The notes below the pieces were generated by a model that was given only the letters and a program-made list of their open reading frames with translations, searched no databases and was not told the DNA's origin. Made by a program: the position numbers and the translations under genes. Shown in pieces: positions 54,504-58,007 of a stretch of DNA of 64,000 nucleotides (position 1 is the first letter of the stretch; every line of letters begins with the position of its first letter). The DNA lies in contig NZ_CP044523.1 of the NCBI RefSeq assembly GCF_008831545.1, positions 2,356,001 through 2,420,000 on the forward strand, read 5' to 3'. Origin of the DNA: Halorussus halophilus (GTDB taxonomy: Archaea > Halobacteriota > Halobacteria > Halobacteriales > Haladaptataceae).

Positions 54504-55094
54504 TCAGAAGTCGCCGTCTTTCACGTACGGATAGCTCCAGAGTGTGACTTGCAGAACGACCGACTTGAACCACGCGTCGTACATCTTTTCGACGGTTTCG
54601 GCGTCGTGGTCGCTGTTCTCCAGAAACTGTCGAATCGTCGCCGTAATCGGGTAGACGAACGCCGTCATGTATCGGAAGTGAATTATCGGCACCGATTCGG
54701 CGTCGTCGGTCTGGTTCTTCTTCGTGCGGTGGTGTCGGAGCGCGATTTCCTGCTGATAGTTTAGCCAGTCTTCGTCGTACGGCGGGTCGCAGGTGTCTCG
54801 AATCCACTGGCCGAATCGCGCACGCACACGGTCAAGATACTCGTCGATAGGTTCGCCTTCGGGCGTGCTGAAGTACTCCAACAGGAAGTCGTGGTCGCCG
54901 ACGAACCCGTACCAGAGTTCCAGCACGTCGTCTATCTGGCCGTCGAGTACGTCGCCCGCCATTCGGAGGTGCTCTTCGTCCTCCTCGGACCACATCACCG
55001 TCTGTTTCAGTTTCTCGAACTCCGCCATGCTGAGTGGTGATTCGGCCACCGAGTCCTCGCCGTAGGTGTACCCCGAAATCTCGGTATCGCTCAT
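54504..55094 (-). CDS. Protoglobin-like heme protein
   Basis: A 196-residue all-helical protein, MSDTEISGYTYGEDSVAESP, with helix MAEFEKLKQTVMWSEEDEEH, LELWYGFVGDHDFLLEYFST, and the distal/proximal region EIALRHHRTKKNQ containing a candidate proximal His, then VPIIHFRYMTAFVYPITATI. This is the globin-coupled sensor/protoglobin fold without a signalling domain, about the usual size. Protoglobins bind O2, CO or NO. The start at 55094 is chosen because the upstream residues are not part of the fold. Confidence 0.85.
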   Translation of the reverse strand: MSDTEISGYTYGEDSVAESPLSMAEFEKLKQTVMWSEEDEEHLRMAGDVLDGQIDDVLELWYGFVGDHDFLLEYFSTPEGEPIDEYLDRVRARFGQWIRDTCDPPYDEDWLNYQQEIALRHHRTKKNQTDDAESVPIIHFRYMTAFVYPITATIRQFLENSDHDAETVEKMYDAWFKSVVLQVTLWSYPYVKDGDF

Positions 55095-55166
55095 GTTCTC
55101 ACCCGACAGAGCCACACCACGGGGATTGTTAACAATTATGTGCTGGCTCGAAGATGTCTCGATACC

Positions 55167-55478: not shown

Positions 55479-55559
55479 ACCACGACAGTACCGGCATTAC
55501 TGACATAATACTTCGGGAGAATCGGCGACCCTTTGACCATCGCAGGCAAATCGCCAGCC

Positions 55560-56270
55560 ATGGAGACGCTCGGGGACCTCGTAGCGCGAGAGCGACGAAG
55601 CGACGAAGTCGCAGTCGTGACCCACGACGGTCGGAGCTACGATTATCATCGATTCTGTACCACGACGTGGAAGACGGGAAACTTCTTCCGTAGATTAGGG
55701 GTGCACGAAGAGGCAACCGTCGCCGTCGCCGACGACCACGCACCCGAAGTCCTCTTCTCGTTCCTCGGTGCGGCGATGCTCAGCGCGGAGACCCAGTTCG
55801 GTCCCGAACGAGAGACAAATGCACGGGTCGTCGTCGCCCCAGTGGAATCAGCCGAATCGTACGACCTCCCCGCAGGTGGCCAGCGAGTCGCCTACGGTGG
55901 CCCGCCAGACGACCCGGCAGTCGCGCACTTCGAGCGCGACGTGTGGAGCGAGAATCCCACGTTTCCGGAGACGCCACTCGATTCTGAGACGGTCGCGCTC
56001 GTCGGCGACGAGCGTGAGTTCACACATGCTGAACTGCTGAGCGGTGCCAGAGAGATTGCGGACGAGTGGGACCTCGAATCGGACGAGCGAGTCGCGGTCC
56101 GCGACTCGCTCGCCAAGCCGGGAACGGTCGTTGCGGGCGTCCTCGCACCGCTGCTCGCTGGCGCGACAGTGCTGTTTCCGGGCGACGAGGAAACCGGTGA
56201 CTTCGCTGTTGGTACTGACACCGCACCCGAGCGCCGAACTATCCGAGCGAAAGACGTATTGAACGACTGA
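55560..56270 (+). CDS. Truncated acyl-CoA synthetase-like (AMP-binding N-terminal) protein
   Basis: A 236-residue acidic protein starting METLGDLVARERRSDEVAVV then YDYHRFCTTTWKTGNFFRRL, the opening of the ANL (acyl-CoA synthetase) fold. Only the N-terminal subdomain and a second GDEREFTHAELLSGAREIAD-like block are present; the AMP-binding P-loop (SSGTTGxPK) and the catalytic Lys region are absent. So it cannot be a normal adenylating enzyme. It could be a decayed gene or a regulatory/binding remnant retained in haloarchaea. It is upstream of the Cys-rich protein gene. Confidence 0.65.
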   Translation: METLGDLVARERRSDEVAVVTHDGRSYDYHRFCTTTWKTGNFFRRLGVHEEATVAVADDHAPEVLFSFLGAAMLSAETQFGPERETNARVVVAPVESAESYDLPAGGQRVAYGGPPDDPAVAHFERDVWSENPTFPETPLDSETVALVGDEREFTHAELLSGAREIADEWDLESDERVAVRDSLAKPGTVVAGVLAPLLAGATVLFPGDEETGDFAVGTDTAPERRTIRAKDVLND

Positions 56271-56333
56271 CTTCGACGGCAACGAGGCCGTGATTCGGTC
56301 GCCGTAGCACGCGGTGTGTTATCCAGCACCAAA

Positions 56334-56341
56334 TTTTATCC
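56334..56341 (+). promoter_or_regulatory. TATA-like box of the Cys-rich exported protein
   Basis: TTTTATCC is 26-33 nt before ATG 56367, consistent with leaderless transcription of a monocistronic unit. Confidence 0.5.
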
Positions 56342-56366: not shown

Positions 56367-57128
56367 ATGCCGAACGAAAATACAGTCAGTCGCCGAAGCG
56401 TCCTTCGAACGACCGCCGCCGCTGGGGCCTCGTTCAGTTTCATGGGAACTACGACTGCAACCGACTCCAACGCACAAGTGGACGGCGTCGCTCGTGAAGT
56501 CGCGGAGTCGTCACACTCCGAGGCAGTCCAAAAATACGACCCCGAAACGATTACGAGCGACATCGACGGCGCGGTCCACGCAGAGTTAGCATCGCGGTAC
56601 GCGGATTCGTTTACCGTCGAGTCGGCACTCGACGACGGAACTGGACGAGTGCTGGAGACGTTGGCCGACCACGGCTATCTGGACAGTCCGACGCTCTCGG
56701 CGTTCGACCTCGAAACGACCTACGACGACGTTCTCGACCCGGCCGACGACCGGGTCGGCGTAGCGACGACCACTCTCGACCACGACGGTACCGAAACCGC
56801 CCACGTCATGGCGACGACCCGCTCGAACGGCTACGATATCGGCCTCTATCACCAACCGGAGACACAGAACACCTACGCGCTGGTCGATACCGACGACGGC
56901 CGACAGGTGGTCCACGACTTCGACGGGGACGTGGGCATCGAGGCAGACTGTTCGTCGAGCACCTACTGTAGCGACGAAGTCTGCTGTACGTGTCGATACT
57001 CTGAAGGAACTGCCGACTACAAGGTGAAAAAGCAAGAAGACTGCTGTCTGCTCCCCGATGGGACCTACGACTGTGACGTGACCGACTTAGACTGCGGCTG
57101 TAGTGTCGATCCGCCCTGCTGTGCGTAG
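56367..57128 (+). CDS. Tat-exported protein with 12-cysteine C-terminal peptide (halocin C8-precursor-like layout)
   Basis: A 253-residue protein. A Tat signal (VSRRSVLRTTAAAGASFSF, then a TTTATDSNA cleavage-like region) is followed by about 160 residues free of cysteine and rich in Asp, Glu and Thr. All 12 cysteines lie in the last 59 residues (195-253), with CC pairs and a CGC, ending in CCA. The same layout (Tat signal, cysteine-free middle domain, Cys-rich C-terminal peptide) is known for halocin C8, whose middle part is the immunity protein; that peptide has 10 Cys and a different sequence. So this could be an unreported microhalocin-type precursor, or a metal-binding exported protein. 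No transporter or processing gene is adjacent. Confidence 0.6.
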   Translation: MPNENTVSRRSVLRTTAAAGASFSFMGTTTATDSNAQVDGVAREVAESSHSEAVQKYDPETITSDIDGAVHAELASRYADSFTVESALDDGTGRVLETLADHGYLDSPTLSAFDLETTYDDVLDPADDRVGVATTTLDHDGTETAHVMATTRSNGYDIGLYHQPETQNTYALVDTDDGRQVVHDFDGDVGIEADCSSSTYCSDEVCCTCRYSEGTADYKVKKQEDCCLLPDGTYDCDVTDLDCGCSVDPPCCA

Positions 57129-57224: not shown

Positions 57225-58007
57225 ATGGCCGAGAACTCGACGCTCGACTTCGAACCTCAAGTCGGACTGGGGACGATGGGTATCGACGACCCAGACAGCA
57301 TCGCCACGGCAATCGAACTGGGCTATCGCCACCTCGACACCGCCCAGATTTACGAGAACGAGCGCGTCGTCGGCGAAGGTATCGAACGCGCGGACGCACC
57401 GCGAGAAGACCTCTCGCTCGCGACCAAGGTGTGGGCTGACAATCTCGCGTACGACGACGTGCTGTCGAGTACTGAAGCGAGTCTCGACAAACTCGGCGTC
57501 GAGTATCTCGACCTGCTGTACGTCCACCGACCTATCGACACCTACGACCCCGAGGAGACGCTCGCGGCGTTCGACGAACTCTACGCCGACGGTCGGATTC
57601 GTGGCGTCGGGGTGAGCAACTTCTCGGTAGCGGAGGTTGCGGAGGCCCGCGAGATTCTCGACGCGCCGCTGCTCGCCAATCAAGTGGAGATGCACCCGTT
57701 CTACCGACAAGAGGAACTGCTGGCGGACGCCCGACGCCACGACTACGCGCTCGTCGCGTACTCGCCGCTGGCACAGGGGAAGGTGTTCGACCAGCCAGAA
57801 ATCCAGTCGGTCGCCGCGAAGTACGACGCCACGGCCGCACAGGTCAGTCTGGCGTGGTTGGCAGGGAAAGAGTCCGTCGTCCCGATTCCACGCTCTTCGA
57901 GCGAGACGCATCTCCAGCAGAATCTCGCGGCGCTCGACCTCTCGCTCGATGCCGAAGCGGTCGCCGAAATCGAAGCAATCGAGCGCGAGCAGAAACTGTT
58001 TGAGTGA
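57225..58007 (+). CDS. Aldo/keto reductase
   Basis: A 260-residue paralogue of the protein at 41955. Same catalytic blocks: LGYRHLDTAQIYENERVVGE, ATKVWADNLAYDD, LDLLYVHRPIDTY, GVSNFSVAEVAEA, LLANQVEMHPFYRQ and VVPIPRSSSETHL. The Trp of YVHWP in the paralogue is Arg here, which may change substrate choice. NADPH-dependent carbonyl reduction is expected. Start ATG 57225 (MAENSTLDFE). Stands alone. Confidence 0.92.
   Translation: MAENSTLDFEPQVGLGTMGIDDPDSIATAIELGYRHLDTAQIYENERVVGEGIERADAPREDLSLATKVWADNLAYDDVLSSTEASLDKLGVEYLDLLYVHRPIDTYDPEETLAAFDELYADGRIRGVGVSNFSVAEVAEAREILDAPLLANQVEMHPFYRQEELLADARRHDYALVAYSPLAQGKVFDQPEIQSVAAKYDATAAQVSLAWLAGKESVVPIPRSSSETHLQQNLAALDLSLDAEAVAEIEAIEREQKLFE

Follow-up and report, generated by a model that had tools for sequence, protein, structure and literature searches.

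What is the product of a haloarchaeal gene that places every one of its cysteines in a short C-terminal tail? The gene lies in a window of 64,000 nucleotides, part of the 4.45-Mb genome of Halorussus halophilus, and had been proposed in a first-pass annotation as a candidate new microhalocin-like precursor. The open reading frame reads as claimed there: a Tat signal is followed by a cysteine-free, acidic middle region and by 12 cysteines in the last 59 residues. The 253-residue product has no cysteine in residues 1–194 and 12 in residues 195–253, a clustering with a chance of 1e-8 under random placement; the motif RRSVLR occupies residues 9–14. The gene and its parts are:

56367..57128, plus strand: gene for a predicted Tat-exported protein of 253 aa with a C-terminal cysteine-rich tail (ATG start; homologues)
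56367..56465, plus strand: Tat signal peptide (RRSVLR), residues 1 to about 33, with no lipobox cysteine
56550..56942, plus strand: middle domain, residues 62–192 (alignment A4; AlphaFold2), with the conserved motif LYxQPExxxxYAxV
56931..56948, plus strand: junction VGIEAD, directly before the first tail cysteine, a degenerate form of the family consensus V-[ST]-x-Q
56949..57125, plus strand: cysteine-rich tail, residues 195–253, 12 cysteines in the pattern C-x5-C-x4-CC-x-C ... CC-x8-C-x6-C-x-C ... CC

That the gene is real follows from homologues with an identical three-part layout in many genera. Within the Tat signal, R9, R10 and L13 are invariant in a 25-member alignment, and PF10518 matches it with E=0.0055, below the gathering score. 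A reading of the protein as an orphan, based on a scan of genome contigs with the protein alone that found no relative, was rejected because a whole-genome search in the taxonomic family did find relatives. That direct search gave matches in 16 of 28 genomes, nearly all of them combining a Tat signal, a middle of about 115–175 aa and a cysteine-rich C-terminus. Some genomes carry several copies, and the genome studied here alone holds at least three family members, so the gene is not the one-off that the word ‘new’ had implied. A profile of the middle only places the family in at least 36 of 292 haloarchaeal genomes and at least 20 of 77 genera, the figure of 36 being a lower bound since 14 candidates were scored per genome; it was used in place of a count of 198 of the 292 genomes from the full-length profile, which was inflated by the Tat signal. 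For pattern scans alignment A2 was too divergent, and the narrower A3 yielded only three named loci. No Pfam, NCBIfam, PHROG or PADLOC model fits the family, 24 members gave no match to the anti-phage defence and phage families of PADLOC and PHROGs, and no relatives were found in viral contigs or PLSDB plasmids. By these searches the family is haloarchaeal, unnamed and without a model in the libraries searched. In Halobacteriales archaeon SW_6_65_15, a degenerate middle that is broken at both its start and its end and lacks the cysteine tail sits upstream of an intact member (L079:154-759) and looks like gene decay beside a live paralogue. Elsewhere, members with differing tails stand in tandem arrays, three in a row at L109 and two in a row at L118 and L119, suggesting duplication and divergence of the tails.

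The layout recalls a system in which both halves of the precursor have proven roles, immunity for HalI and killing for HalC8. The halocin C8 precursor ProC8 (HalI and HalC8; loci L032 and L033) likewise joins a Tat signal, a cysteine-free middle and a cysteine-bearing C-terminus in one open reading frame, with an even number of cysteines, a similar length and haloarchaeal hosts. This layout, pointed out in the first-pass annotation for the single protein, defines the whole family. Sequence tells the two groups apart, as had also been proposed. TIGR04449, which occurs in 32 of the 292 genomes (31 of them above the cut-off of 24 bits), has no match by hmmscan in the window protein or in 25 members, and none in the genome studied; by this test the protein is not a member of the halocin C8 family (TIGR04449). 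Mature halocin C8 has 76 aa, is hydrophobic and contains 10 cysteines, whereas the tail described here has 59 aa, is hydrophilic and acidic and contains 12. In numbers, the window tail has a GRAVY of -0.33 and a charge of -8 (family means -0.40 and -5.7), against +0.95 and -2 for halocin C8 from L032 and an average GRAVY of +0.73 for TIGR04449 tails. What stands of the proposed microhalocin-like precursor is the halocin C8 layout; its coding in a self-contained accessory cassette (see below) is what a bacteriocin encoded by one gene would show. Kinship with halocin C8 by sequence is not supported. The halocins described so far are all hydrophobic, according to a 2024 review (PMC11509114).

The tails of the family are joined by a conserved core, C-x4-6-C-x3-5-C ... 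CC ... C-x5-7-C-x-C, and between paralogues they differ greatly in length and in cysteine number, which ranges from 3 to 22 across the family. Among 73 members in which the cysteines after the signal number from 4 to 22, the total is even in 67 (p about 2e-14), or in 55 of 58 when each tail cluster is counted once (p about 1e-13); three of the six members with odd numbers are close relatives of one another. In exported proteins an even number is best explained by pairing, which argues for disulfides and against metal sites. The two marks of a disulfide-bonded secreted domain, an export signal and even cysteine numbers at varying counts, are both present, and it is strongly supported that the tail cysteines would be paired in disulfides. 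The tail alone has no match in Pfam or NCBIfam, metal-binding families included. In one other haloarchaeal genus (g40), a subfamily has 3–5 cysteines, in some members an odd number (L077, L078, L151, L171), and is perhaps an uncross-linked or dimeric variant.

The middle domain was modelled on its own with AlphaFold2 (pLDDT 75.6, pTM 0.71), giving with fair confidence a predicted helix-loop-helix followed by an antiparallel beta meander, and the model strongly supports a fold of its own for this region. Foldseek returned no confident fold match for it (best E 0.33), and the best VIA match, to a Tim21 fusion, has Z 5.5 over 104 residues with an rmsd of 4.0 Å, where Z below 8 is uninformative. 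The full-length model was poor (pLDDT 53.5), so that its fold matches were discarded as meaningless. Comparison of the middle with HalI by hhalign gave a probability of 0.3% and a score of 13.9, against 9.1 ± 1.4 for a shuffled-column null whose maximum was 13.4 in 60 trials; the sole match to the HMM was a weak one, to L048. Tried in three ways, homology between the middle and HalI could not be demonstrated. For HalI, an N-terminal helix-loop-helix is reported to be required for immunity (Mei et al. 2008, as cited in PMC11509114). An N-terminal helix-loop-helix, predicted here and reported for HalI, may be common to both and is a lead, no proof of homology.

At the junction of middle and tail, V[ST]xQ occurs no more than 14 residues ahead of the first tail cysteine in 11 members out of 49 and 5 TIGR04449 (halocin C8-type) precursors out of 17, against a background elsewhere in those middles of 0 and 0.7%, respectively. 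The motif is thus present in part of both groups and might be where a maturation protease recognises the precursors of both.

The surroundings of the gene are informative on how it was acquired. The features concerned are:

54504-55115, minus strand: protoglobin upstream of the gene (PF11563, E=6e-34), ordinary
55533..56270, plus strand: left flank, TIGR03089-like AMP-binding protein, whose gene lies next to the right flank in eight further genomes
57225..58007, plus strand: right flank, aldo/keto reductase (PF00248 E=1.2e-54)

Eight further genomes of the genus have the flanks side by side, 49–109 bp apart, whereas here the distance is 958 bp and the interval holds only the gene and its promoter. 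The gene is therefore a single-gene insertion with its own promoter, and the data strongly support a cassette of one gene, sufficient in itself, which genomes gain and lose. No direct or inverted repeats of the transposon type were found flanking the insert. The closest homologues (L003 and L004, 36–43% identity) lie elsewhere, between genes named by eye as tbp and hisG. This interval is about 470–610 bp in eight other genomes and variable in the rest, and it is a second variable insertion site for the family. In Halorussus genomes (loci L082, L083, L256, L258 and L262) the tbp–hisG site is empty in about half; two genomes carry family genes there, and several carry small genes of other kinds. 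The neighbours identified in the window encode LonB, the protoglobin, the AMP-binding-like protein, the aldo/keto reductase, GNATs and an acyl-CoA synthetase. No neighbouring gene is common to loci of different genera, bar a possible link to tatC, which means that no dedicated immunity gene and no exporter accompany the gene; the same is true of halocin C8. As to tatC, members at L095 (G000:C1:3519000-3533000), L099, L081 and L102, from two subfamilies and two different haloarchaeal families, lie 0.5–3.2 kb from what by eye are tatCt or tatCo, possibly by chance, possibly through a link to the exporter.

The promoter could be read directly:

56319..56341, plus strand: promoter, with the element TTATCCAG (56319-56326) followed by a TATA-like AAATTTTATCC (TTTTATCC at 56334-56341)

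The centre of TTTTATCC is about 29 nt upstream of the ATG, the position that would be expected for a leaderless haloarchaeal transcript, and the promoter of its own that had been ascribed to the gene is borne out in this predicted form. The arrangement is like that of CTAGTTATCTAG..AAATTTAA upstream of the paralogue L002. Among close-relative members 14 of 27 have a CTAG, often in two copies, at -60..-30, compared with only 4 of 228 genes in the neighbourhood; for the family as a whole it is 18 of 70 members, against 1 of 32 halocin C8-type genes, whose promoter element differs. The window gene has a degenerate copy (CCAG, in TTATCCAG) at the matching position, which was left out of the 14 of 27. 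Several members (e.g. L002, L007, L008, L019 and L026) carry tandem CTAG (CTAGTTATCTAG, CTAGTATCCTAG) at a spacing of 8 bp just upstream of the TATA box, a candidate operator of a regulator. It is plausible that the genes of the family have a regulator in common.

Conservation of the tail in nine orthologue-like pairs roughly equals that of the middle, also with the cysteine columns excluded, and in the pairs for which dS could be estimated the dN of the tail is well below dS. The tail is under purifying selection. Its conservation together with the low dN/dS marks it as a selected, functional part. The diversifying selection on the tail that an arms race would lead one to expect was not seen in the orthologue-like pairs.

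Secreted precursors of antagonistic fragments are known from other haloarchaeal systems, compared here by description. Some halocin precursors are activated by proteases, and halolysin acts on halocin H4 (PMC12893001); this cleavage is the maturation model that we have borrowed. The fragment freed from HapP (HFX_0892) of Haloferax mediterranei is N-terminal and alpha-helical, and its description makes no mention of cysteine (PMC12893001), whereas in the family described here it is the C-terminal, cysteine-rich tail that would be freed. Archaeal lanthipeptides are likewise ribosomal, cysteine-containing and antagonistic peptides of haloarchaea, which require a lanthionine synthetase (PMC10105419), in contrast to the present locus, where none is found among the neighbours identified. 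Tat export and the even cysteine number point to disulfides rather than lanthionine.

The reading we favour, tentatively, is that the gene encodes an exported, disulfide-rich precursor from which a protease would free the tail to act on neighbours, the middle serving as a pro-domain. Judging by the well conserved signal, the precursor would be exported in folded form via Tat. An extracellular protease would then cut at the V[ST]xQ-like junction, as halolysin does with halocin H4; the analogy of halocins H4 and C8 and the common junction motif suggest cleavage at this point. The freed peptide would have about 59 residues and up to six disulfides, and the middle may aid its folding, hold it inactive or protect the producer. 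Once outside the cell it would act on neighbours, most probably as a means of competing with other haloarchaea, as the accessory single-gene distribution, the multiple paralogues and the layout suggest. Hydrophobic halocins are thought to insert into membranes, whereas the hydrophilic and acidic character of this tail points to binding of a surface target. We count in favour of the precursor the family-wide layout, the even cysteine numbers, a tail profile found only with the middle, selection on the tail, the empty site in eight genomes, the second variable site and the lack of a partner gene across genera, as well as the V[ST]xQ motif common to halocin C8-type precursors, the helix-loop-helix of the middle, the CTAG element in paralogues and the precedent of protease-activated halocins. 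Against it we count a hydrophilic tail where halocins are hydrophobic, the hhalign probability of 0.3% between middle and HalI, the degenerate form of the strict junction motif in the window protein, and the lack of diversifying selection.

The main rival is an intact, uncleaved two-domain secreted protein in which middle and tail would work jointly, for example in surface, adhesion or ligand-binding roles. In the 292 genomes the tail-alone profile matches only open reading frames of the family, and among the further matches inspected the middle always comes with a cysteine-rich tail, the three exceptions being a degenerate copy, a cut copy and a false match. This fits an uncleaved protein, as does the absence of strict V[ST]xQ from most members, but a precursor would be just as likely to have both parts in one gene. 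Tails that vary in size and carry anything from 3 to 22 cysteines over a conserved middle are less usual for a structural protein, as are single-gene insertions that come and go, and we consider an uncleaved protein unlikely. The co-regulated-looking paralogues with their common CTAG promoter element, the secreted variable tails and the lack of an immunity gene nearby would also suit the precursor of a signalling peptide, or a pheromone-like protein, sensed by kin and harmless to rivals. A linked receptor or transporter common to loci of different genera was not found, however, and the patchy presence in the taxonomic family fits signalling less well; we judge it improbable.

Two further alternatives concern the chemistry of the tail. 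Variable loops on a small, hydrophilic, disulfide-rich domain are a typical mark of protease inhibitors, and the tail might block extracellular serine proteases (halolysins), whether the producer's own or those of rivals. Halolysins are indeed active in the same medium (PMC12893001), but the tail matches no known inhibitor family or solved structure, and a role of this kind seems distinctly improbable. A metal-binding or redox domain, metallothionein-like or with an Fe–S site for instance, had been kept as an alternative in the first-pass annotation; in its favour are the cysteines, which make up 20% of a tail that has no other annotation. The predominance of even cysteine numbers despite their wide range argues against it, as do the lack of histidine and of a metal-binding family match and the oxidising medium outside the cell in which the tail would reside, and we regard it as very improbable.

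What does the precursor reading mean for haloarchaea? Few archaeal antimicrobial peptides are known at the level of sequence, yet most haloarchaea inhibit each other. Judged by its sequences, the family described here is large and unnamed, like the halocin C8 precursor in layout and outside that family, and its lone genes that come and go fit a repertoire of secreted weapons or signals. Should the tails prove inactive, the family would still represent a new secreted domain, rich in disulfides and exported via Tat; if they are active, sequence mining could yield hundreds of candidates at once. A bolder proposal, which we hold to be possible but rather doubtful, is that these genes form an unrecognised class of archaeal peptide weapons, with dozens of divergent, water-soluble disulfide mini-proteins per genus, each encoded by a single gene, exported folded by Tat, furnished with a protective or chaperone pro-domain in cis, and spreading alone into intergenic sites. 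If so, haloarchaea would possess an archaeal counterpart of venom-like disulfide-peptide repertoires.
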